Shown: in pieces, positions 26,549 to 40,984 of the stretch
How positions within the stretch are numbered: the first letter of the stretch is position 1
Layout of the letters: each line of letters begins with the position of its first letter
From: a virus
Strand: one strand, 5' to 3'
Length of the DNA: 55,641 nucleotides
Virus record (IMG/VR): IMGVR_UViG_3300010885_060050
Coordinates: 1 to 55,641 of that record
The notes under the pieces: generated by a model
Told to the model about the DNA's origin: nothing
Seen by the model: only the letters and a program-made list of their open reading frames with translations
Databases searched by the model: none
Position numbers and translations under genes: made by a program

Positions 26549-26992
26549 ATGAAAGTCCTAGCTATAATTCTAAGTATGGTGTTAACGGTTACACCAACAA
26601 ATCAACTAACAATTATAGACCAGTCGACAAAACAAACCGTAGAAAAAACAGAACAAAAAGCACAACACTATAAGGCTCGAATTACATACTACAATCCTGA
26701 TCCTAAATGGGGATCCAAAGTTTCTTGGCAAAAAACTAAAAAAGCAATTAAAGGAGTTACAATTGCAGCTCATCCTGACTTTAAATATGGAACAAAGGTA
26801 TCAATACCAGGCCTCGCAGGAGTTGTTGGAGATGGCACCTTTGTTGTACAGGATCGAGGACCATCTGTAACAAAAAAGAAAGCTGCAGATGGACAGGGGT
26901 ATGTGTTTGATGTCTATGTTGACAACACAAAAATATCAACTATTACAAAACGCGTTCCAATGTGGATGGATGTCTATGTTTTAACCAACTAA
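26549..26992 (+). CDS. Secreted 3D-domain protein (RlpA/MltA-like beta barrel)
   Basis: 147 aa. An N-terminal signal sequence (KVLAIILSMVLTVTP) is followed by a linker and a 3D domain with its three aspartates: GDG (D95), VVQDRG (D102) and FDVYV (D121). Such domains occur in peptidoglycan-active proteins. Exported to the periplasm or wall, it may alter peptidoglycan or block entry of other phages. Enzymatic activity is not proven by motifs. Confidence 0.8.
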   Translation: MKVLAIILSMVLTVTPTNQLTIIDQSTKQTVEKTEQKAQHYKARITYYNPDPKWGSKVSWQKTKKAIKGVTIAAHPDFKYGTKVSIPGLAGVVGDGTFVVQDRGPSVTKKKAADGQGYVFDVYVDNTKISTITKRVPMWMDVYVLTN

Positions 26993-26999
26993 ATTTATT

Positions 27000-27962
27000 A
27001 TGAAAAATCAATTAGCTTCAATCGAAAAAATTGACAGTGTATTACCGCATACAAATGCAGATTCATTGGAAATTGTTGTAGTACGAAACTGCAATGTCAT
27101 TGTCCCAAAAGGCAAACACGTTGCAGACGAGCACATCATTTTCCTGTGGCCTGATGGCATCTTACCTGATGTAGCATGGTCACAATTTTATCGTGCCAGA
27201 AGCTCACGTGTAAAAGCGTGTAAGTTGCGAGGACAATGGTCTTTTGGTATTGTTGAAACTCCAGCTGCTGTAGGTTACACAGGCCCTATGACACTTGGAC
27301 TTGATATTTCTGAAGTTCTTGGAATAACAAAATATGAACCGCCAATGCCTCAAGATCTTTCAGCACTTGGGTATTTACCGCATGGCATTCCAAAGACTGA
27401 TGAAGAAAATCATTATCATCTCGATGGTCTACCATATGGCAAAGTGTGTATTGTAACGCGCAAACGCGACGGCAGCAGCTGCAGTTTTTATTACAATCAC
27501 CAAACAGATACCTTTGGAATCCTATCTCGATCAATGGAACTTAAACCTGAATGTGTCAATGATTGGACTGTCCACGTTGAAAAATACAACATTGAAAACA
27601 AATTGCGTCAATATTGTAAACTTCATGAGGTGTCCTTGTGCCTAAGAGGTGAAGCCTTTGGGTCAGGACGCAATGGTCACTGTGCCAATGTTGATGCAAA
27701 AGAAACACGATCATGGGAGATGTTTTCAGTCTATGATATTGCCAAACATAAGTATATTAGCATTCGCGACACTCATGGATCAATGGTGCTGTCAGCCGAG
27801 TTTGAACTTCCTCATGTACCAATTCTAGAATATTGTGTAGACTTGACGCCTGAAACCATTCGACACTACTCAGAAGATTCTATCGGATATGAAGGTGTTG
27901 TAATTCACTGTGAAGGCAACACATTTAAAGTTATCAATAAGCCATACGACTCAAAAAAATAA
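27000..27962 (+). CDS. RNA ligase, Rnl5/DraRnl-like
   Basis: 320 aa. An N-terminal OB-like domain (LASIEKIDSVLPHTNADSLE) is followed by nucleotidyltransferase motif I KRDGSS with K155 as the predicted AMP-accepting lysine. Motif IIIa-like LRGEAFG, motif IV EGVVIH and motif V FKVINKPY follow. The N-terminal OB domain before the ligase domain is the arrangement of Deinococcus-type RNA ligase. It probably seals nicked RNA, such as cleaved tRNA. A HAD phosphatase gene lies two genes downstream. Confidence 0.87.
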   Translation: MKNQLASIEKIDSVLPHTNADSLEIVVVRNCNVIVPKGKHVADEHIIFLWPDGILPDVAWSQFYRARSSRVKACKLRGQWSFGIVETPAAVGYTGPMTLGLDISEVLGITKYEPPMPQDLSALGYLPHGIPKTDEENHYHLDGLPYGKVCIVTRKRDGSSCSFYYNHQTDTFGILSRSMELKPECVNDWTVHVEKYNIENKLRQYCKLHEVSLCLRGEAFGSGRNGHCANVDAKETRSWEMFSVYDIAKHKYISIRDTHGSMVLSAEFELPHVPILEYCVDLTPETIRHYSEDSIGYEGVVIHCEGNTFKVINKPYDSKK

Positions 27963-32896: not shown

Positions 32897-33154
32897 ATGT
32901 CAACAAAAAATGATATTACAGGAGATCTAATAGCATCTAAAACATTGTCCAAACAAGGACGTGACAATTGGGACAATATTTTTAAGCCTAAAAAGACCGC
33001 AAACGAATGGGCATCACATAAAAATTTAAATGTGAAAATTTTAAATGCAAATGGATGGTCTCAAGGCGATGGCGTGACACTCGATACACCTATCTCCGAA
33101 GCAGATTTTAACATGCGGCTAAGTCTTTCTACAATTTTGGGTGCAACAATATAA
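32897..33154 (+). CDS. Hypothetical protein
   Basis: 85 aa, polar (NDITGDLIASKTLSKQGRDN). It ends 1 nt before the HNH gene ATG. No family recognised. Confidence 0.68.
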   Translation: MSTKNDITGDLIASKTLSKQGRDNWDNIFKPKKTANEWASHKNLNVKILNANGWSQGDGVTLDTPISEADFNMRLSLSTILGATI

Positions 33155-33155
33155 T

Positions 33156-33776
33156 ATGAAACCGATTAGCCCAACAACAAAAACCACACTAGTCCTTTCT
33201 GGTGGATTTGAACCTCTTGGATTTTTTAATGCACGATCAGCAATGCGCAACCTTGTTGTTGGTGCTGTAAAAGCATATGATCCGCATGGTAACATTCACG
33301 ATTGGAGCTCATGGATTGGAAATGATACTGGCCTTCCAGATGATTATCCCTGTATGCGCACCGCCGATGTGGCGTATGCCGTTCCTACAATTGTTGTAAT
33401 TCCAGGATATTTCAATAGTAAAAGATTTATGAAACGCCGGCGCAAAACAATCAAATTGCGCCAGCTCTATAACATTTATGACCGTAAATGCCAATATTGT
33501 TTAAAGGAGATCCCATATTCAGTTGCAACACGAGATCATGTAGTTCCAAGAAGTAAAGGTGGTGACAATTGTGATTCAAACATTGTGCTGTCATGCAAAA
33601 AATGTAACCTACGCAAAGGATCAAAGTTTCCATATTCAAATGTGTTCGGATCATCCGTTGTTCCAAAGATCCTGTCTGATGTTGAATTTTCTGCATTGAG
33701 CGATAGCGTAAGTCATCGTGCCGAATGGAATATTTTTGTTGGCAATCCAAGAGAACATACAGCAACACTTTCGTAA
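33156..33776 (+). CDS. HNH endonuclease (McrA-like zinc type)
   Basis: 206 aa. The C-terminal half holds CQYC, then RDHVVPRSKGGDNCDSNIV (the HNH core DH...N), then CKKCN, giving the two zinc cysteine pairs of McrA-like HNH domains. The N-terminal 100 residues are a separate beta-rich region (TLVLSGGFEPLGFFNARSAM). This two-part form is common for phage and bacterial HNH proteins of unknown target. Start at ATG 33156. Confidence 0.87.
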   Translation: MKPISPTTKTTLVLSGGFEPLGFFNARSAMRNLVVGAVKAYDPHGNIHDWSSWIGNDTGLPDDYPCMRTADVAYAVPTIVVIPGYFNSKRFMKRRRKTIKLRQLYNIYDRKCQYCLKEIPYSVATRDHVVPRSKGGDNCDSNIVLSCKKCNLRKGSKFPYSNVFGSSVVPKILSDVEFSALSDSVSHRAEWNIFVGNPREHTATLS

Positions 33777-34524: not shown

Positions 34525-34599
34525 CGCGGGAAATTCGAATGGCTCAGAAGAATGTCTCATAAGCATTATAAGTCGGTTCGACTCCGGCTCCCGCAACCA
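34525..34599 (+). tRNA. tRNA-Met (CAU), initiator-like acceptor
   Basis: CGCGGGA pairs with TCCCGCA except for a C1-A72 mismatch, the hallmark of bacterial initiator tRNA; ACCA follows. Anticodon stem AAUGU/GCAUU with loop CUCAUAA, T arm GTCGG-TTCGACT-CCGGC. The three G-C pairs typical of initiator anticodon stems are absent and the D stem is weak (UUCG/AGAA). Confidence 0.75.
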
Positions 34600-34707
34600 A
34601 TTTGCAACCGCACTCAGGAACAGTAGCGATGCTCTCGGCGTGGATTAAGTTCCAATCTTCGGATTGCCGTGGTTGTATGCTTGTCAAAGCTGTTTGTATT
34701 TTTTAAT
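34600..34707 (+). other. Spacer with UUCG hairpin
   Basis: No gene. CAATC-TTCG-GATTG (34653-34666) is a compact tetraloop hairpin of the very stable UUCG type, inside an otherwise unassigned spacer. Confidence 0.4.
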
Positions 34708-34782
34708 GCGTTCGGATAGTGTAATGGTAAGCACAGCTTCCTTCAGGAAGAGAGTGTTGGTTCGATTCCAACGAAGCGCACA
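34708..34782 (+). tRNA. tRNA-like sequence, anticodon arm abnormal
   Basis: D arm GTGT-AATGGTAA-GCAC and T arm GTTGG-TTCGATT-CCAAC are good, and the ends GCG/CGC pair. The anticodon region folds best as CUUCC-UUCA-GGAAG with a four-base loop, so no normal 7-nt anticodon loop exists. It could be a tRNA-Glu (UUC) that lost loop bases, a pseudogene, or a processed form. Confidence 0.5.
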
Positions 34783-34847
34783 ATTTTATAAAATCTGGGA
34801 GTTTCCTCGACTCCAATGCAAGCTGAAAAGCATCGAGGTTAATTTTC

Positions 34848-34916
34848 GCGGACGGAAAGCTGGTGGCTCCAGCAGTAAGACTGTAAATCTTATCCTTAAC
34901 AGGGAGTGGATCGAAA
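34848..34916 (+). tRNA. tRNA-Tyr (GUA), 5' part, interrupted by homing endonuclease insertion
   Basis: Begins GCGGACG, anticodon stem UAAGA/UCUUA with loop CUGUAAA (GUA), a longer variable region and T-arm start GGAGTGGATCGAAA. The matching 3' end (CCAC ... GGCCGC-ACCA) is found at 35891-35906, behind a second copy of the same 14 nt. The pieces together make a tRNA-Tyr with one acceptor mismatch. As it stands this copy has no acceptor 3' strand. Confidence 0.7.
34903..34916 (+). repeat. 14-bp direct repeat, left copy
   Basis: GGAGTGGATCGAAA, identical to 35877-35890. The two copies bracket the homing endonuclease gene and a complete tRNA-Tyr. Confidence 0.85.
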
Positions 34917-34928
34917 GTTTCACATTTG

Positions 34929-34936
34929 TATAAATA
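34929..34936 (+). promoter_or_regulatory. T4-type late promoter octamer
   Basis: TATAAATA ending 5 nt before the ATG at 34942; a transcript from it would be leaderless or nearly so. Confidence 0.75.
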
Positions 34937-34941
34937 CATCT

Positions 34942-35790
34942 ATGAACTACCAGCGCATCTACAATAATTTAATTTCTTATCGTCAAAATAATCCAGCAAC
35001 GGGTTATACCGAAAAACATCACATAGTGATGAAATCAATGGGCGGATCCAATGACCCTTCCAATCTGGTAGTTCTAACAGGAAGAGAACATTGGATCGCC
35101 CACCTCTTATTGTATAAAATACATAAGAACAATAAAACTGTGCATGCATGCCGAATGATGGGATTTAAGTCAAAAACAAATTTTGAAAGAACATCTGTTA
35201 AAAATTCCAGAATGTATGCGCATGTTCGCGAATATTGTTATGCGGCTTTATCCCTTTCACAAAGGGGAAAAAATAATTCACAATACGGTAAAATTTGGAT
35301 ATACAACATTGATCTCAAAAAATCTAAACGTATAAAAAACGGAGATGACATTCCGAATGGTTGGCGAGTTGGTTATAAATTATTTGATAGAAAAATCCAT
35401 TATCAAAAATGTCATAAATGTGAATCGACATATGAGAGCGAAAATTTACGTAGAAAATATTGCCAAACTTGTTTAGAATCAAAGAGTCAGACCACTATTA
35501 AAATTAAACCTAAATTTATATGGATGACAAATGGTTTTCTAAATCTTAGAATAAGAGAAGATAAAAAAAATGAAAATTCGAATTTAAGATTGGGTAAATC
35601 AACCGATGAAGAAATAGCTTTTCTTTATATTTTTCTATATAAAGAATTCAAAACATCAAATTGCTCATTACGAGCTTTTGTGAAAGATAAGAAACTTCCA
35701 ATATCTTTTATGACACTAAAAAACAATTTCATAAAATATACAGAATATTTTGCAAATAAAACAAAGCATTCTAAATATAAAAGTACGTGA
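34942..35790 (+). CDS. HNH homing endonuclease inside a tRNA gene
   Basis: 282 aa from ATG 34942. The HNH core is TEKHHIVMKSMGGSNDPSNL followed by VVLTGREHWIAHLLLYKIHK, the form found in phage free-standing endonucleases (Mob/I-type HNH). The middle contains CHKC ... CQTC, a zinc ribbon, and the end looks DNA-binding. The stop codon lies 8 nt inside the next tRNA-Tyr. The late octamer sits just upstream. The gene probably spreads by cutting unoccupied tRNA-Tyr genes. Confidence 0.85.
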   Translation: MNYQRIYNNLISYRQNNPATGYTEKHHIVMKSMGGSNDPSNLVVLTGREHWIAHLLLYKIHKNNKTVHACRMMGFKSKTNFERTSVKNSRMYAHVREYCYAALSLSQRGKNNSQYGKIWIYNIDLKKSKRIKNGDDIPNGWRVGYKLFDRKIHYQKCHKCESTYESENLRRKYCQTCLESKSQTTIKIKPKFIWMTNGFLNLRIREDKKNENSNLRLGKSTDEEIAFLYIFLYKEFKTSNCSLRAFVKDKKLPISFMTLKNNFIKYTEYFANKTKHSKYKST

Positions 35791-35871
35791 GGCTACTGTT
35801 GGTTGTGTAGCGGCAGACTGTAACCCTGCTCATTAGTAACATCGTCCGTTCGATTCGGACCGCGTACACCA
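35783..35871 (+). tRNA. tRNA-Tyr (GUA), complete
   Basis: Acceptor GTACGTG/CGCGTAC with ACCA, D stem GCUAC/GUAGC, anticodon loop CUGUAAC, long variable region of about 14 nt, T arm GTCCG-TTCGATT-CGGAC. The endonuclease ORF stop lies in its 5' strand. Confidence 0.85.
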
Positions 35872-35876
35872 ATTTA

Positions 35877-35906
35877 GGAGTGGATCGAAACCACACGGCC
35901 GCACCA
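35877..35906 (+). tRNA. tRNA-Tyr 3' fragment (T arm, acceptor, CCA)
   Basis: GGAGTGGATCGAAA repeats the end of the tRNA at 34848-34916, followed by CCACACGGCCGCACCA, which completes its T stem and acceptor. It is the displaced or duplicated 3' end of the interrupted tR-Tyr gene. Confidence 0.7.
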
Positions 35907-35910
35907 ATTT

Positions 35911-36010
35911 TAATACATAGTGTAATGGTAGCACGCCCCAAGCAAAGGGTTTCTTGTCCGATAGGATAGGCAAACATGCCGCGGTGAAGGTTCGATTCCT
36001 TCTGTATTAT
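35911..36010 (+). tRNA. tRNA-like gene with about 27 nt extra, anticodon unresolved
   Basis: A perfect acceptor TAATACA/TGTATTA, D stem GTGT/GCAC after TA at 8-9, and T arm GAAGG-TTCGATT-CCTTC. Between D and T arms lie about 50 nt with small hairpins (CCC/GGG, TCC/GGA, GGCA/TGCC) and no clear anticodon loop. CCA is not encoded. It may be a long-variable-arm tRNA or carry an insertion. Confidence 0.5.
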
Positions 36011-36013
36011 TCA

Positions 36014-36202
36014 TTTTAAGGTAAATGCTCCAATTGTAAGGGTCTGCAGCCCGAGAAAATAAAAACGATTAAAGACTCAGCTGAGCGCGAGTCGCCGTTT
36101 TGACCAATAGGATGATCCATGGGCTCGTAAGAGAAGTAAGTGAATCCGAAGCTAGGAGGTGGTGGTCAAATAGAGTTTGCGTAACCTCCAAGATTTCAAA
36201 AT
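36014..36202 (+). ncRNA. Structured spacer with CCA-ended minihelix
   Basis: At 36062-36106, AAAACG pairs with CGUUUU and encloses GACTC/GAGTC; the strand ends GACCA like a tRNA 3' end, but the RNA is only about 45 nt. Farther on, GGAGGT/ACCTCC forms another stem. No tRNA or ORF could be completed here. Confidence 0.35.
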
Positions 36203-36277
36203 GCTGCCATCGTCTATCGGTTAGGACAAATGGTTTTCAACCATTAGAGCGGGGTTCAACTCCCCGTGGCAGTACCA
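36203..36277 (+). tRNA. tRNA-Glu (UUC)
   Basis: GCTGCCA/TGGCAGT acceptor with G1-U72, ACCA encoded, anticodon stem AAUGG/CCAUU with loop UUUUCAA, T arm CGGGG-TTCAACT-CCCCG. Confidence 0.92.
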
Positions 36278-36282
36278 ATTTT

Positions 36283-36356
36283 GCGGGATTAGTTTAATGG
36301 TAAAACCCCTTCCTTCCAAGTAGGTGACATCAGTTCGATTCTGATATTCCGCTCCA
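36283..36356 (+). tRNA. tRNA-Gly (UCC)
   Basis: GCGGGAT/ATTCCGC acceptor, U73 and CCA, anticodon loop CUUCCAA, T arm ATCAG-TTCGATT-CTGAT. Confidence 0.92.
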
Positions 36357-36787
36357 ATTTTTGCAATGACAATCGGTGAGTTAGGCGCACAACGTTGTGT
36401 GTACAGGCTTGAGATTCCGTGTGGGTTAATAACCATACATTGTAAATACTAAAAAGCAATACGAAGGTTATGCTTCCTTCACAATTTTTAACAGGTATGT
36501 CGGCTTAGAAGTAGCCATCATATAAGAAGTGGAACTAGACGTGGAGAAGAGGTAATTCGTATGTATACAATTCAACCAAGACATACATCCTTGCAAGAAG
36601 AAATGTGAGTGAATTCTCTCATTACACTGTTGCAAAGGTGCTGCGATACTCGTGAATTGCGTTTCATAGGATGCGACTTTAGGACGCTAAACAAGCATAA
36701 CTCCTTTGGTGTAGCAACAACACCTGTTAAGCCCTGAGCATGGCATAAAAATAAAGGCTCTAATTTTCGTATAATTTTTTTAACATC
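36357..36787 (+). other. 430-nt non-coding interval, unassigned
   Basis: No convincing ORF on either strand. Possible RNA elements: TGCAATG/CATTGTA closing a segment with TGTGG/CCATA at its 3' side (tRNA-like, no anticodon found), and ATACGAA (about 36461) with TTCGTAT (about 36558) closing about 100 nt with a GGCT/AGCC hairpin. It may hold degenerate or intervening RNAs of the array. Confidence 0.4.
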
Positions 36788-36863
36788 GGGGATGTAGCTC
36801 AATTGGTAGAGCGCCTGCTTTGCAAGCATGATGTTGCAGATTCGAGTTCTGTCATCTCCACCA
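36788..36863 (+). tRNA. tRNA-Ala (UGC)
   Basis: GGGGATG/CATCTCC acceptor with ACCA, D arm TAGCTCAATTGGTAGAGC, anticodon loop UUUGCAA. One mismatch in the anticodon stem. Confidence 0.92.
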
Positions 36864-36869
36864 TTTTAT

Positions 36870-36944
36870 GCCACAATAGCTCAGAGGCAGAGCAGATTCT
36901 TCATACGGATCAGGTCGAGATTTCAAAATTCTCTTGTGGTACCA
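36870..36944 (+). tRNA. tRNA-Met or Ile2 (CAU)
   Basis: GCCACAA/TTGTGGT acceptor, anticodon stem GAUUC/GGAUC with loop UUCAUAC, T arm GAGAT/ATTCTC-like, ACCA encoded. The CAU anticodon may be lysidine-modified to read AUA. Confidence 0.88.
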
Positions 36945-36951
36945 ATTTTAT

Positions 36952-37025
36952 GTCACGTTGGCCGATCGACTAGGCAGTTGGCTGCAACCCTTCTCAGGTA
37001 GGTTTGATTCCTACACGTGACTCCA
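36952..37025 (+). tRNA. tRNA-Cys (GCA)
   Basis: GTCACGT/ACGTGAC perfect acceptor with U73 and CCA, D stem GCC/GGC, anticodon loop CUGCAAC, T arm GTAGG-TTTGATT-CCTAC. The anticodon stem has two mismatches. Confidence 0.85.
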
Positions 37026-37036
37026 CTTTTTATAAT

Positions 37037-37111
37037 GCCTCAATAGCTCAACGGTAGAGCTCTTAATTTGTAATTAAGGGGTTGTTGGTTCGAATCCGAC
37101 TTGAGGCTCCA
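37037..37111 (+). tRNA. tRNA-Thr (UGU)
   Basis: GCCTCAA/TTGAGGC acceptor, U73 CCA, anticodon stem CUUAA/UUAAG with loop UUUGUAA, T arm GTTGG-TTCGAAT-CCGAC. Confidence 0.95.
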
Positions 37112-37121
37112 ATTTTATAAT

Positions 37122-37244
37122 GCGGTATAGTCAAAAGAAACCCGAAACAAAAGACAGTAAAGCTCGGACTGTCCTAGAAGAAGGAGATCACGGGGTATTT
37201 CGGAGTCCCTAGCAAGGCAGTATTGACGCGCTGCCGCCGCTCCA
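37122..37244 (+). ncRNA. Unidentified structured RNA ending in CCA
   Basis: Lies exactly where a tRNA would, with the same TTTTATAA spacer before and TCCAATTTT after, but is 123 nt. GCGG at the 5' end can pair with CCGC at the 3' end. CCGAAA (about 37142) pairs with TTTCGG (about 37198), and inside it GACAGT/ACTGTC makes a perfect hairpin. GGCAG/CTGCC stands where a T stem would be. No anticodon arm recognised; neither a tRNA nor a known RNA family by eye. Confidence 0.45.
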
Positions 37245-37256
37245 ATTTTCATATAT

Positions 37257-37331
37257 GCGCTTCAAGCTTTAACAGTGAAGCACCTGGCTTTTAACCAGAC
37301 TAACACGGGGCAGTACCGTGGAGGCGCACCA
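37257..37331 (+). tRNA. tRNA-Lys (UUU)
   Basis: GCGCTTC/GAGGCGC acceptor with ACCA, anticodon stem CCUGG/CCAGA with loop CUUUUAA. The T loop is GGCAGTA instead of the usual TTCRANN. Confidence 0.85.
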
Positions 37332-37340
37332 ATTTTCAAA

Positions 37341-37416
37341 TCCCAAGTAGCTCAGTTGGTAGAGCGCCGAGCTGTTAACTCGGATGTCGTTGGATCGTGA
37401 CCAACCTTGGGAGCCA
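37341..37416 (+). tRNA. tRNA-Asn (GUU)
   Basis: TCCCAAG/CTTGGGA perfect acceptor with G73 CCA, D arm TAGCTCAGTTGGTAGAGC, anticodon stem CCGAG/CUCGG with loop CUGUUAA, T arm GTTGG/CCAAC. Confidence 0.95.
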
Positions 37417-37425
37417 TTTTATATA

Positions 37426-37501
37426 CGGACGTTAGTCTCGGGGTGAGACGCTTGGTTTGGGACCAAGAATCGGTGGATTCGACTTCCACACGTCCGACCA
37501 C
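37426..37501 (+). tRNA. tRNA-Pro (UGG)
   Basis: CGGACGT/ACGTCCG perfect acceptor with ACCA, anticodon stem CUUGG/CCAAG with loop UUUGGGA. Confidence 0.95.
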
Positions 37502-37748
37502 TTTTGCGGTCATTGAGGGGTATTCGTCAACTAAGACGTTTGTGCATGGTAGTCAACATAAAACGCACGATTCAGAAATGAATCTCAATGCAGTTGATAT
37601 AAATCGGGTCTTTCGAGGCGATTAGCCGGTTGGGAACACAATGCACGATATAGCGACCTGAGCCGCAAATCACTTTCCAATTGCCTGACTGTAAGCGGCT
37701 ATACCTGATAAAGTAGTGCGCAGCAGGTCAGGAATTGGTCAATTTTCA
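37502..37748 (+). ncRNA. Non-coding interval with strong long hairpin
   Basis: CCAATT-G-CCTGAC (37677-37689) pairs with GTCAGG-AATTGG (37727-37738), a 12-bp stem with one bulged G around a 37-nt loop. Upstream, GCGGTC (about 37506) and GACCTGAGCCGC (about 37656) can pair. No ORF or tRNA fits. Confidence 0.4.
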
Positions 37749-37823
37749 CGCCGCGTAGCTGAGTGGTTTTAGCAGATGGTTGATAACCGTCAGACGTAAG
37801 TTCAATTCTTACCGTGGCGACCA
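37749..37823 (+). tRNA. tRNA-Ile (GAU)
   Basis: CGCCGCG/CGTGGCG acceptor with ACCA, anticodon loop UUGAUAA, T arm GTAAG-TTCAATT-CTTAC. Confidence 0.93.
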
Positions 37824-37831
37824 CTTTCAAA

Positions 37832-37907
37832 GAGTTGTTAGTAGAATGAACATCACGCTACGCGGAAAAACGTAGAGATCCAGTTTCGATTACTGGGCGA
37901 CTCACCA
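37832..37907 (+). tRNA. tRNA-like, 8-nt anticodon loop (GAA?)
   Basis: GAGTTGT/GCGACTC acceptor with ACCA and T arm CCAGT-TTCGATT-ACTGG are good. The anticodon stem CUACG/CGUAG closes an eight-base loop CGGAAAAA with no U33. If GAA is the anticodon it would be Phe, but a normal tRNA-Phe is at 40207. Confidence 0.6.
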
Positions 37908-37915
37908 ATTTCAAT

Positions 37916-37989
37916 AGGGGATTAGCATAATAGAAGTGCTCCTGACTTTGACTCAGGCCGTATGTGTGCGACTCACATATCCCCCACCA
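37916..37989 (+). tRNA. tRNA-Gln (UUG)
   Basis: AGGGGAT/ATCCCCC with an unpaired A1-C72 end, ACCA, D stem GCAU/GUGC, anticodon stem CCUGA/UCAGG with loop CUUUGAC, T arm ATGTG-TGCGACT-CACAT. A weak first pair suits glutaminyl-tRNA synthetase. Confidence 0.9.
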
Positions 37990-37995
37990 TTTTTA

Positions 37996-38326
37996 GGGGA
38001 TGTTTTTGGTTTCGACATGATTGGAAAAACAGCATCTGCAATCAAAGGTCTGCACGACCTTAAGTGCGCAACAACAAAAGGCATTAATAACCTAGCTCTC
38101 GCTGCTTAAGTGGCGATCATTTATCATTGACTCCTCTATTTGATAAATGACGACAGAGGATATTCTCATAATGAAAATATGATACGAAGTGTGCAAGAGA
38201 TGATACACTCGGGCGCCGTTCCGTATGCGGCTCGTCAGTTGGCGGACAATAAATGCCAAATATGATTGTAGAGTGATGCTGATGCACCAATCGTGGACGC
38301 GGGTTCAACTCCCGCCATCTCCACCA
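37996..38326 (+). ncRNA. ssrA: tmRNA (transfer-messenger RNA)
   Basis: 331 nt. The 5' GGGGATG pairs with 3' CATCTCC-ACCA. The 5' end has the tmRNA signature TTTTGGTTTCGACATGATTGG and the 3' end a T arm GCGGG-TTCAACT-CCCGC. A tag frame opens at the resume codon GCA (38068) and encodes ATTKGINNLALAA then TAA (38107-38109). The LALAA end is the protease-recognition form of bacterial tags. It rescues stalled ribosomes and marks the peptide for degradation; here it would act with host SmpB. It sits inside the tRNA array with normal spacers. Confidence 0.95.
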
Positions 38327-38333
38327 TTTTAAC

Positions 38334-38407
38334 GCGCCATTCGTCTAATGATAAGACATATGTTTTACATGCATATAACATAGGTTTGATTCCTATATGG
38401 TGTACCA
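38334..38407 (+). tRNA. tRNA-Val (UAC)
   Basis: GCGCCAT/ATGGTGT acceptor with G1-U72, ACCA, anticodon stem UAUGU/GCAUA with loop UUUACAU. Confidence 0.92.
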
Positions 38408-38415
38408 TTTTCACT

Positions 38416-38490
38416 GGCCCGTTAGCTCAATGGAAGAGCAAGATGTTTCTACCGTCTAGGTTGGGGATTCGAGTTCCTCACGGGTCACCA
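38416..38490 (+). tRNA. tRNA-Arg (UCU)
   Basis: GGCCCGT/ACGGGTC acceptor with ACCA, anticodon stem AGAUG/CGUCU with loop UUUCUAC, T loop TTCGAGT. Confidence 0.93.
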
Positions 38491-38494
38491 ATAT

Positions 38495-38570
38495 GCACGT
38501 GTACTTTCAATGGCAGATGGGAACATTGTCAATGTTTCGGACGCAGGATCAGTACCTGTCACGTGCGCCA
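38495..38570 (+). tRNA. tRNA-Asp (GUC)
   Basis: GCACGTG/CACGTGC perfect acceptor with G73 CCA, anticodon stem GAACA/UGUUU with loop UUGUCAA, T stem GCAGG/CCTGT with an atypical loop ATCAGTA. Confidence 0.88.
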
Positions 38571-38608
38571 TTTTAGCAATAAATTTTTAAAGTATAAACA
38601 CTCAATCA

Positions 38609-38616
38609 TATAAATA
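38609..38616 (+). promoter_or_regulatory. T4-type late promoter octamer
   Basis: TATAAATA 8 nt before the ATG at 38625, so the transcript would have almost no leader. Confidence 0.75.
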
Positions 38617-38624
38617 ACATTACT

Positions 38625-39515
38625 ATGACAAATGGATATTTTAACAGCAAACCAGATAGTATATTTGAAGCCGCAACCAAAGTGCTTTCAGAAGGCAAAT
38701 ATGTAGTTTCAACTGACAACTTGAAGAAAGTTTTTAAAGCGCTTTCAACGGCTCAAAACGGTTTAGATGTGGCAATAAAAGACTATGATTCAATTGAAGG
38801 CCCTGGTGGTCATGGTTCAGGTCATTATCAAGCTGCAATGGTCGTTGAATATTATCGCAAAAAAGTTAAAGAACATATCAGTGCGATGATTGAAATTCAA
38901 GAAGGTTTAATGGAGAGCGGCGAAATGACAAAGCTATTACAACAGGCTTTCATTGATGAATTAGAGGATAATGTTGAATCATTGCAAAAACAAATTGAAT
39001 CTCGTGATGATAATAATTATGTTCTTAAGACTCAATTACGTGAACGTAAAGCAATACTCGCTAAAGCAAAAGCAGATCTTAAGACTTTAAAAGAATCATA
39101 TTGCGATGATGAAGAATCAAATATTAATGAAGCAAGCGGACAATCTGATCCAGATATTACCGTTTGGACTAAAAAGGGCAAACATAATTATGATAGCTTT
39201 TTAGCCGCAAATGAAGATCGAATCGGAAAGCCAATGATCGACGGTGGCCTTAAAGCAAACTATAAAGATGCTGATCAAGTAAACGGACAGCCTAATGAAG
39301 ATGTAATCTATTGCGGTGCCGGATGCGTTGCATACATGGATGGTGATACAAAAATTTTCATCAAACTTCCATCCAAGTACTTAAACGATGCTGACGGTAC
39401 ACTCCCCTGGTCAAAATGGCGTTCTTATGACAGTGAACGTGTCATTGTTAAAGGCAAAACTTCTGCAGAATTTAGAGCTTATGCAGCCGCGCTGGCTGTT
39501 GCCACAAAAGCATAA
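38625..39515 (+). CDS. Late protein, probably virion-associated
   Basis: 296 aa, inserted in the tRNA array under a late promoter. The N-terminus DSIFEAATKVLSEGKY resembles those of the late proteins at 39537 and 40534. The middle is a long coiled coil (ELEDNVESLQKQIESRDDNN ... AKADLKTLKE). The C-terminal domain has YCGAGCVAYMDGDTKIFIKL. The acidic 'AA..vL.E' start recalls capsid-targeting leaders of T4 internal proteins, so a head protein is possible. No family recognised. Confidence 0.75.
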   Translation: MTNGYFNSKPDSIFEAATKVLSEGKYVVSTDNLKKVFKALSTAQNGLDVAIKDYDSIEGPGGHGSGHYQAAMVVEYYRKKVKEHISAMIEIQEGLMESGEMTKLLQQAFIDELEDNVESLQKQIESRDDNNYVLKTQLRERKAILAKAKADLKTLKESYCDDEESNINEASGQSDPDITVWTKKGKHNYDSFLAANEDRIGKPMIDGGLKANYKDADQVNGQPNEDVIYCGAGCVAYMDGDTKIFIKLPSKYLNDADGTLPWSKWRSYDSERVIVKGKTSAEFRAYAAALAVATKA

Positions 39516-39520
39516 ACTAT

Positions 39521-39528
39521 TATAAATA
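39521..39528 (+). promoter_or_regulatory. T4-type late promoter octamer
   Basis: TATAAATA 8 nt before the ATG at 39537. Confidence 0.75.
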
Positions 39529-39536
39529 ACAATAGT

Positions 39537-39818
39537 ATGAATAACATTAAAACATCAGATGAAACGTATATTGCCGCAAAAGCAATTTTAGAAGGACTAA
39601 CATTAAGCGAAATTAAAATTCCCACTAGAATTGTTGTAAGAAAGGCATACGATATGGTTGTCGATTTTAATGCAGAAGACATGGAACAATTTCTAGGTGT
39701 TTTATCTGCATATTTTATGTATGAAGGCGGTGACGTCTATACAAAATCTGATTTTCAGAATACCGGTGTTCTTCTAAAAAGAGCGTATGAATCCTGGAAA
39801 AACAGATCCAACAAATAA
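39537..39818 (+). CDS. Small late protein
   Basis: 93 aa with the same kind of start as its neighbours (TSDETYIAAKAILEGLTLSE). Mostly helical. Function unknown; late promoter suggests a structural or packaged protein. Confidence 0.7.
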   Translation: MNNIKTSDETYIAAKAILEGLTLSEIKIPTRIVVRKAYDMVVDFNAEDMEQFLGVLSAYFMYEGGDVYTKSDFQNTGVLLKRAYESWKNRSNK

Positions 39819-39847
39819 TCATACAGCTGTCAAATATTTTTGTTTTT

Positions 39848-39922
39848 GCGTGCATAGCTCAATGGAAGAGCGTCTGTCTTCGAAACAGAATGTTGGAGGT
39901 TCGAGTCCTTCTGCGCGCACCA
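39848..39922 (+). tRNA. tRNA-Arg (UCG)
   Basis: GCGTGCA/TGCGCGC acceptor with ACCA, anticodon stem UCUGU/ACAGA with loop CUUCGAA. Confidence 0.93.
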
Positions 39923-39934
39923 AATTTTCTTAAT

Positions 39935-40011
39935 GCCCTCGTAGCCCAATTGGCAGAGGCGCTTGCCTTAGAAGCAAGATGTTGTCAGTTCGACTCTGAC
40001 CGAGGGTACCA
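39935..40011 (+). tRNA. tRNA-Leu (UAG), short variable arm
   Basis: GCCCTCG/CGAGGGT acceptor with ACCA, anticodon stem CUUGC/GCAAG with loop CUUAGAA, variable loop only AUGUU, T arm GTCAG-TTCGACT-CTGAC. Bacterial tRNA-Leu normally has a long variable arm. Confidence 0.88.
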
Positions 40012-40039
40012 TTTTTGTGAGAGGGTGTCTAAACCGCTT

Positions 40040-40100
40040 GGCCCGTCGGTTGAACTCACAACGCAATGATTCCAAATCATTTGTTGTTAACGGGCCGCCA
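40040..40100 (+). tRNA. 61-nt tRNA-like RNA with CCA anticodon-type loop, no T arm
   Basis: A perfect 7-bp acceptor GGCCCGT/ACGGGCC with G73 CCA. Stem AAUGA/UCAUU has loop UUCCAAA, which is either a Trp-type anticodon loop or a T-type loop. Only 8 nt separate this stem from the acceptor 3' strand, so one arm is missing. ACAAC/GUUGU can extend the stem into a rod. A normal tRNA-Trp is at 40291. Confidence 0.5.
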
Positions 40101-40109
40101 ATTTTCTAT

Positions 40110-40198
40110 GGAAGCTAGCGTCAAGGTGACAAACCAGATTTGAACTCTGGGCTATGCGTTTGTAGCGGGTAGGGGTTCGATTCCTCTAGCTTCCTCCA
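40110..40198 (+). tRNA. tRNA-Ser (UGA)
   Basis: GGAAGCT/AGCTTCC perfect acceptor with U73 CCA, anticodon stem CCAGA/UCUGG with loop UUUGAAC, long variable arm GCUA/UAGC, T loop TTCGATT. Confidence 0.94.
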
Positions 40199-40206
40199 TT
40201 TTCAAT

Positions 40207-40281
40207 CCACACTTAGCTTATGCGGTAAAGCGTTCGCCTGAAGAGCGAAACAAGACGATTCGGACACGTCAGTGTGGACCA
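40207..40281 (+). tRNA. tRNA-Phe (GAA)
   Basis: CCACACT/AGTGTGG perfect acceptor with ACCA, anticodon stem UUCGC/GCGAA with loop CUGAAGA. The T stem GACG/CGTC has an A-A mismatch next to the loop. Confidence 0.9.
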
Positions 40282-40290
40282 TTTTCTAAA

Positions 40291-40364
40291 ACACCTCTGA
40301 TGTAAAGGCAGCATAATGGTCTCCAAAACCATTCGTGAGATTTCGAAATTCTCGGGGTGTGCCA
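40291..40364 (+). tRNA. tRNA-Trp (CCA)
   Basis: ACACCTC/GGGGTGT acceptor with G73 CCA, D stem AUGU/GCAU, anticodon stem AUGGU/ACCAU with loop CUCCAAA, T arm GAGAT/ATTCTC-like. Confidence 0.92.
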
Positions 40365-40391
40365 TTTTATGAAAAAAAGTGAAAAAAGTTG

Positions 40392-40420
40392 TTTACAACT
40401 GCCGTTTTTTATGGTAGAAT
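40392..40420 (+). promoter_or_regulatory. Sigma70-like promoter inside the tRNA array
   Basis: TTTACA 40392-40397, a 17-nt spacer, TAGAAT 40415-40420, 15 nt before the tRNA at 40435. Confidence 0.8.
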
Positions 40421-40434
40421 ATTCATACAACAAC

Positions 40435-40511
40435 ACCCTTGTAGCTCAGCTGGTTAGAGCATTCGACTCATAATCGACAGGTCCTTGGTTCAAGTCCAAG
40501 CGGGGGTACCA
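40435..40511 (+). tRNA. tRNA-Met or Ile2 (CAU)
   Basis: ACCCTTG/CGGGGGT acceptor with ACCA, D arm TAGCTCAGCTGGTTAGAGC, anticodon loop CUCAUAA, T arm CTTGG-TTCAAGT-CCAAG. Fourth CAU tRNA of the window, with its own promoter. Confidence 0.92.
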
Positions 40512-40517
40512 ATTTTT

Positions 40518-40525
40518 TATAAATA
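40518..40525 (+). promoter_or_regulatory. T4-type late promoter octamer
   Basis: TATAAATA 8 nt before the ATG at 40534. Confidence 0.75.
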
Positions 40526-40533
40526 ACAATACT

Positions 40534-40803
40534 ATGAACAAACATTTTTCAAACTCAAACAATGATCCGCTTGTTGCTGCTGCAACAGAAGTTCTCAATG
40601 AAAATATTACTGCGACAGATAATACATTTGTTATACTCAAGGATAATACTTTGGCGTTTATTGATAAATCAATAAATCAAACCCAAACTATAGTTTGGGT
40701 TCCACGTGGATGGGGCAGTAAAGAAGTCAAAACCGAAACTTTAAATAAATCAATTAAAGCTGTAGTCGGTAAAGTTTCAAGCGTATACGGCCCTGGAAAA
40801 TAA
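40534..40803 (+). CDS. Small late protein
   Basis: 89 aa. N-terminus SNNDPLVAAATEVLNENITA shares the 'AA..vL.E' pattern with the late proteins at 38625 and 39537. The C-terminus is basic (KEVKTETLNKSIKAVVGK). Function unknown. Confidence 0.7.
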   Translation: MNKHFSNSNNDPLVAAATEVLNENITATDNTFVILKDNTLAFIDKSINQTQTIVWVPRGWGSKEVKTETLNKSIKAVVGKVSSVYGPGK

Positions 40804-40814
40804 AATATATTTAA

Positions 40815-40905
40815 GGAACGTGACTGGACGGACGAAGACTACACTTGGAAAGTGTAGAACACTCCTATAAGAGTGTCGCAGGTTCGAATCCTGCACGTTC
40901 CGCCA
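40815..40905 (+). tRNA. tRNA-Ser (GGA)
   Basis: GGAACGT/ACGTTCC perfect acceptor with G73 CCA, anticodon stem UACAC/GUGUA with loop UUGGAAA, long variable arm ACACUC/GAGUGU, T arm GCAGG-TTCGAAT-CCTGC. Confidence 0.95.
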
Positions 40906-40907
40906 AT

Positions 40908-40984
40908 GCACCGGTGGGCTAATTGGTAAAGCCTCCAGATTTAAGCTCTGGCGATTGTGCGTTCGAGTCGCACTCGGTGTACCA
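40908..40984 (+). tRNA. tRNA-Leu (UAA), short variable arm
   Basis: GCACCGG/TCGGTGT acceptor with ACCA, D stem GGCU/AGCC, anticodon stem CCAGA/UCUGG with loop UUUAAGC, variable loop CGAUU only, T arm GTGCG-TTCGAGT-CGCAC. Confidence 0.9.

Follow-up and report, generated by a model that had tools for sequence, protein, structure and literature searches.

Genes for tmRNA were listed earlier for mycobacteriophages and Bacillus phage G (PMC4131195), and a 2021 collection held them in 402 of 18,146 phage genomes (PMC9004378). Cellulophaga phage Calle is reported to carry 20 tRNAs and a tmRNA (PMC8776804), and T4-like viruses of marine Bacteroidetes are an earlier proposal (PMC7198788). In the E. 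coli tmRNA, experiments place the resume codon 12 nt downstream of pseudoknot 1, and the frame is determined chiefly by the A at position -4 (PMC2481249).

The tmRNA described here lies on a viral contig of 55,641 bases, which is called the window below. An earlier note, made from the bare sequence, considered phage tmRNAs uncommon, a statement that needs qualifying in view of the 402 genomes and of at least 119 IMG/VR stretches with the pattern of a tmRNA plus an ALAA tag, many of which are permuted-gene tmRNAs. Phage tmRNA is already known; new here are a clade that hangs together in T4-like phages, the correction of its tag, and a caution on tags called automatically. In our assessment, the window tmRNA is likely a one-piece tmRNA that functions in a T4-like phage, probably infecting Bacteroidota, and adds the tag GINNLALAA with the help of host SmpB.

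The tmRNA gene and its surroundings

ARAGORN and Rfam place a complete one-piece (ssrA-type) tmRNA with encoded CCA at identical coordinates (Table 1). The RF00023 score of 118.1 bits (gathering score, 47; E = 1.4e-45) comes from a match over the full model (positions 1-374 of 374), and the RNA folds with a z-score of -3.9, none of 100 shuffled sequences being equally stable. With the permuted two-piece model (RF04321) the score is 26.8 bits (cut-off, 47), and the contiguous one-piece structure is inconsistent with it.

The tRNA-like domain is complete, comprising a 7-bp acceptor stem, a T-arm, the sequence UUCGAC in a reduced D-arm, and CCA. The third acceptor pair is G.U (G3.U70, the alanine identity), and A73 is present. 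The gene is, as the earlier note stated, a full tmRNA with paired ends, CCA, and the tmRNA signature, set among tRNAs: the ARAGORN list for the plus strand contains 24 small-RNA genes, 23 for tRNAs and one for the tmRNA. Pseudoknot 1 was located by a simple H-type finder run without regard to the tag, which returned nothing for the relative L007 and implausible knots in a few controls of other architecture (Acinetobacter-type and Erysipelotrichaceae). The second stem of the probable pseudoknot 2, whose pairing was read by eye, takes the form UCCUAU:AUAGGA in the relatives L007 and L271 and UCCGA:UCGGA in L148.

Table 1. Features of the window tmRNA and its immediate neighborhood
Feature	Position	Strand	Evidence
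tmRNA gene, 331 nt	37996..38326	+	RF00023, ARAGORN, identical copy L021:5311-5641
tRNA-Gln(UUG), 6 nt upstream of tmRNA	37916..37989	+	ARAGORN, Rfam
tRNA-Val(UAC), 7 nt downstream of tmRNA	38334..38407	+	ARAGORN, Rfam
Same-strand tRNA array enclosing tmRNA (22 of 23 ARAGORN tRNA genes)	34525..40984	+	ARAGORN
Acceptor stem 5' strand GGGGAUG, pairing with CAUCUCC 38316-38322	37996..38002	+	Sequence
ACCA after acceptor stem	38323-38326	+	Sequence
T-arm GCGGG-UUCAACU-CCCGC	38299..38315	+	Fold, Rfam alignment
Pseudoknot 1	38045..38068	+	Best H-type pseudoknot, search blind to tag
Pseudoknot 1, stem 1 AAGGUC:GACCUU	38045-38050:38056-38061	+	H-type search
Pseudoknot 1, stem 2 UGCAC:GUGCG	38051-38055:38064-38068	+	H-type search
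11-nt spacer CAACAACAAAA; A at -4 of resume codon is 38076	38069..38079	+	Sequence comparison
Tag frame GGC ATT AAT AAC CTA GCT CTC GCT GCT TAA (GINNLALAA-stop)	38080..38109	+	
Stem-loop UCGCUGC-UUAA-GUGGCGA, stop codon in loop (helix-5 type)	38099..38116	+	Fold
Probable pseudoknot 2	38117..38160	+	Fold; second stem by eye in relatives
Pseudoknot 2, first stem, long and A+U-rich	38117-38126:38141-38150	+	Fold
Pseudoknot 2, second stem UCCUCU:AGAGGA	38132-38137:38155-38160	+	Pairing read by eye

Further elements lie in the array and elsewhere in the window. Three tRNA-like genes missed by ARAGORN (35911-36010, 38495-38567, and 34717-34772) match RF00005 with 42.5, 37.4, and 29.9 bits, and the segment at 37835-37911, which shares 76% identity with a tRNA-Arg(ACG) from contig L004, is by this resemblance probably a degenerate tRNA. 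Between tRNA-Pro and tRNA-Ile lies a 248-nt stretch without an Rfam match (37501-37748, plus strand), with 95% identity to L021:4896-5140 and 92% identity to L004:17797-18038, where its position in the array differs. It folds only modestly better than shuffled sequences (z = -1.7), shows slight covariation (2 pairs), and may be either a non-coding RNA or a mobile element. Genes for homing or HNH endonucleases occur at 52-927, 33141-33776, and 34906-35790; two of these lie where the array begins, and they are possible agents of its shuffling. The T4-late-like sequence TATAAATA is found at 11 sites of the window, several directly upstream of ORF starts (e.g., 38609, 39521, and 40518), and a promoter-like repeat, TTTACA-17-TAGAAT, at 40392, 41180, and 41584, in and after the array; two copies have TG before the second hexamer, and related repeats are present near other genes and in L021.

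The resume codon and the peptide tag

The frame of the tag was established by comparison, and its most likely product, on this comparative reading, is the nine-residue peptide GINNLALAA, starting at GGC 38080. This codon is assigned because it follows pseudoknot 1 after an 11-nt spacer and has A at -4, as expected from the controls: in most tmRNAs with a clear pseudoknot 1, E. coli type included, the resume codon lies 11-12 nt past it, a rule that rests on controls other than the Acinetobacter-type and Erysipelotrichaceae ones. The AAAA run before GGC 38080 could cause some misreading in other frames.

The earlier note had proposed a longer tag of 13 codons, ATTKGINNLALAA, with GCA 38068 as resume codon. 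Its frame and stop are identical to those of GINNLALAA, so that the intact frame before TAA and the degradation-type C terminus LALAA, which is kept in relatives, were correctly recognized, and proteobacterial controls resume at GCA too. However, GCA 38068 shares bases with the 3' side of stem 2 in pseudoknot 1 (GUGCG, 38064-38068), which would make the spacer -1 nt; it has G, not A, at -4; and it is not conserved, its counterpart being AAA in L145 and L219. Moreover, a stop a few codons upstream closes the LALAA frame in the L148 group, against a longer tag of the ATTKGINNLALAA type. The 13-residue version is therefore very improbable, and the covariance search that the note had suggested as a check returned the strong match; the tag start expected at 38068 lies inside pseudoknot 1.

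A further candidate is the tag that ARAGORN prints, AQQQKALIT from GCG 38066, which would make the molecule a release or decoy RNA with no degradation tag. GCG 38066 does have A at -4 in the sequence, but it lies inside pseudoknot 1, with a spacer of -3 nt, and its frame, which is other than the LALAA frame, is not conserved: it reads AKTQKAKIP in the L219 phage (L269) and runs for 32 residues in L163. LALAA, by contrast, persists through synonymous changes. We give AQQQKALIT hardly any credence and retain GINNLALAA as the tag.

The wrong tags that ARAGORN prints for the window, L021, L269, L163, and L242 arise because a start inside pseudoknot 1 is accepted, and cataloguing phage tags from such output would lead to the false conclusion that these RNAs encode no degradation tags. 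Among other predictions, the tag of L138 is unusually long (30 residues). Cellulophaga phage phi38:1 (L318), an isolated Bacteroidota phage of the same genus as Calle, was examined for a possible tmRNA; the ARAGORN call at 26805-27164, with tag AQIEANMEAVNAILNLEVAVGV, is probably false, as the GGTTTCGAC signature usual for tmRNAs is missing from it. Published tmRNA counts from ARAGORN may include false calls of this type.

Conservation, origin, and probable host

The gene and its structure are conserved in related phages. Related contigs were found via a neighboring protein, the RNA ligase, the tmRNA 5' end, and the tmRNA-plus-ALAA pattern, and their whole records were also searched with RF00023, which scored above its cut-off in 7 of the 14 related or tmRNA-bearing viral records searched in this way. 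The comparison set consists of nine distinct phage tmRNA sequences, whose stems were compared individually by script because plain MAFFT alignments misplaced pseudoknot 1 of L007 and L271. All nine keep seven of seven acceptor pairs, G3.U70, and ACCA, and the pairs other than G3.U70 vary (GUGCCUG/CAGGUAC in L274 and GGGUGUG/CACAUCC in L148). Stem 2 of pseudoknot 1 shows compensated changes, to UGCAC:GUGCA in L145, L219, and L148, UGCUC:GAGCA in L274, UGAC:GUCA in L271, and GCCA:UGGC in L007. The spacer measures 11 nt in tags that start with G (12 in L007, counting paired bases only) and 10 nt in the L148/EKDT group.

Every one of the nine also has A at -4 and ends its tag in x-LALAA-stop, the tags being GINNLALAA, GENTLALAA, GKNTLALAA, and EKDTLALAA. 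The LALAA residues are constant while their codons vary (CTA, CTC, CTT, and TTA for leucine; GCT, GCA, and GCG for alanine), and such synonymous change beneath a constant peptide is the pattern expected from selection on the peptide in that frame. Contig L021, which belongs to the same group of phages, carries all 331 nt of the window tmRNA unchanged, while most alignable flanks nearby are 87-97% identical; this identity could also stem from local recombination.

A tree of 69 tmRNAs unites the window sequence and eight relatives in a single clade (ultrafast bootstrap 97, SH-aLRT 93). Proteobacteria lie farther from this clade than do some Bacillota and the Bacteroidota that have GE-type tags, a placement without firm support. 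A blastn search of the tmRNA and the tRNA array against annotated phages returned only common T-arm and tRNA-sized matches. Temperate elements often adjoin ssrA, and Acinetobacter phage MD-2021a has an ssrA-integrase pair, so the window gene might be a host ssrA that was acquired not long ago, perhaps next to an integration site, and plays no part in infection. The chance of this appears very slim, since no close bacterial gene was found, the clade of the window tmRNA consists of phage sequences alone and has long internal branches, the gene sits within the tRNA array of a T4-like phage, and it is invariant between two contigs whose flanks have diverged. One tRNA-rich, phage-like contig, C438 (L285), is binned in a Flavobacteriales MAG and has a tmRNA with the tag ANDAIYDQAVAA; this tmRNA differs from that of the window, and the contig is only distantly related.

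The window encodes T4-type proteins (DNA polymerase, clamp loader, SbcC/SbcD, UvsX-like recombinase, RNA ligase, and thymidylate synthase). Its nearest annotated DNA polymerase, at 45.5% identity, is that of Phage C48C1, with cyanophages next. The host is probably a member of the Bacteroidota, as judged from two independent signs, the resemblance of the tag to Bacteroidota tags and the lack of a Shine-Dalgarno signal. Sampled Bacteroidota genomes have the tags GENNYALAA, GEYNYALAA, GESNYALAA, and GENNFALAA, with resumption at GGC and A-rich spacers, and seven of the nine residues of GINNLALAA agree with GENNYALAA; different tags (DNNYSYRLAA and ANDYSYAMAA) occur in further sampled Bacteroidota. 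A Shine-Dalgarno motif precedes 1 of 47 window ORFs, where shuffling predicts 3%. The corresponding counts are 3/38, 3/47, and 1/51 in the Bacteroidota phages phi14:2, phi38:1, and Colly_1 and 17/35, 10/29, and 14/51 in T4, Syn19, and Phage C48C1.

The tag does differ from that of E. coli, as the earlier note observed, but in light of GENNYALAA and GEYNYALAA the difference probably reflects a Bacteroidota host and not a peculiarity of the phage. The Bacteroidota-like tag is also a usable host clue. The exact tag names no host, because the pattern G-x-N-x-(F/L)-A-(F/L)-A-A, searched genome-wide, matched eight bacterial contigs that come mostly from Bacillota MAGs, with one from the Flavobacteriales MAG in which C438 is binned.

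Proposed function and comparison with known systems

The host, like expression, charging, SmpB use, proteolysis, and benefit to the phage, is among the points that we infer. The tmRNA would be transcribed along with the tRNA array, cut to size by host enzymes, charged with alanine by the host alanyl-tRNA synthetase through G3.U70, and used together with host SmpB and host ribosomes. At ribosomes stalled on the 3' end of a broken or stop-less mRNA, it would add alanine and then GINNLALAA, as translation switches to GGC 38080 and proceeds to UAA 38107-38109, where termination would release the ribosome. The tagged peptide would be degraded by a host ClpXP-type protease reading the C-terminal ALAA. 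The likely benefit would be that ribosomes do not stay trapped while infection, nucleases, or tRNA-cutting defenses produce many truncated messages and the supply of host ssrA has ceased. The T4-type RNA ligase and the large tRNA array of the contig are consistent with a rationale based on mRNA decay and tRNA-cutting defenses. The authors of the Melnitz study suggested that a phage tmRNA helps to maintain the machinery that the phage has hijacked or to recycle proteins of the host (PMC9004378).

SmpB (PF01668) was found neither in the 55.6-kb window contig nor in 20 other viral records, all possibly fragments, and the SmpB serving the tmRNA is presumably that of the host. The same result would also suit a regulator or decoy that mainly ties up host SmpB or acts as a competitor of the host tmRNA, a role suggested for mycobacteriophage DS6A, whose tag-less tRNA-like RNA provides the precedent (PMC4131195; PMC11915505). 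This role is improbable for the window RNA, which conserves a tag frame, a stop, pseudoknot 1, and LALAA, features that a decoy would not need, and tagging with GINNLALAA remains the preferred function. It is conceivable, if rather unlikely, that T4-like Bacteroidota phages keep their own tmRNA lineage with a host-like tag in which leucine replaces the aromatic residue before ALAA (GINNLALAA versus GENNYALAA), so that peptides from stalled ribosomes would be steered away from the protease or adaptor that receives peptides with the host tag and toward another, in the phage's favor during infection.

The window RNA resembles bacterial one-piece tmRNAs (RF00023) in its full-length match, tRNA-like ends, G3.U70, CCA, pseudoknot 1, 11-nt spacer, A at -4, tag ending in ALAA, and stop in a hairpin loop. 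It differs from them in being short (331 nt) and phage-borne and in having the tag GINNLALAA, and its pseudoknot 1 spans 24 nt, as opposed to 30 in E. coli. With the chromosomal tmRNAs of Bacteroidota it shares the GGC resume codon, a nine-residue tag ending in ALAA, an A-rich spacer, and A at -4 and -3. Unlike in these, position 5 of the phage tag is L in place of Y, and C, not U, occupies position -5; the chromosomal RNAs are about 350-395 nt long, and the phage clade is not placed firmly inside them in the tree.

Among phages, a tmRNA apart from host ssrA is also carried by the mycobacteriophages Bxz1, Wildcat, and others, by Bacillus phage G, and by Melnitz and its marine kin. In Melnitz and many marine phages the tmRNA is permuted and in two pieces, whereas that of the window family is in one piece, with tags that start with G or E and end in LALAA. 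Other one-piece phage tmRNAs, with the tags GNNQLALAA, GNYNLALAA, ANENFALAA, and ANTNFALAA, likewise specify nine residues, and several lie in tRNA-rich contigs, but they form separate clades with a pseudoknot 1 unlike that of the window family. To these known systems the present family adds a conserved tmRNA clade of T4-like phages with large tRNA arrays, its tag drawn from comparative evidence.
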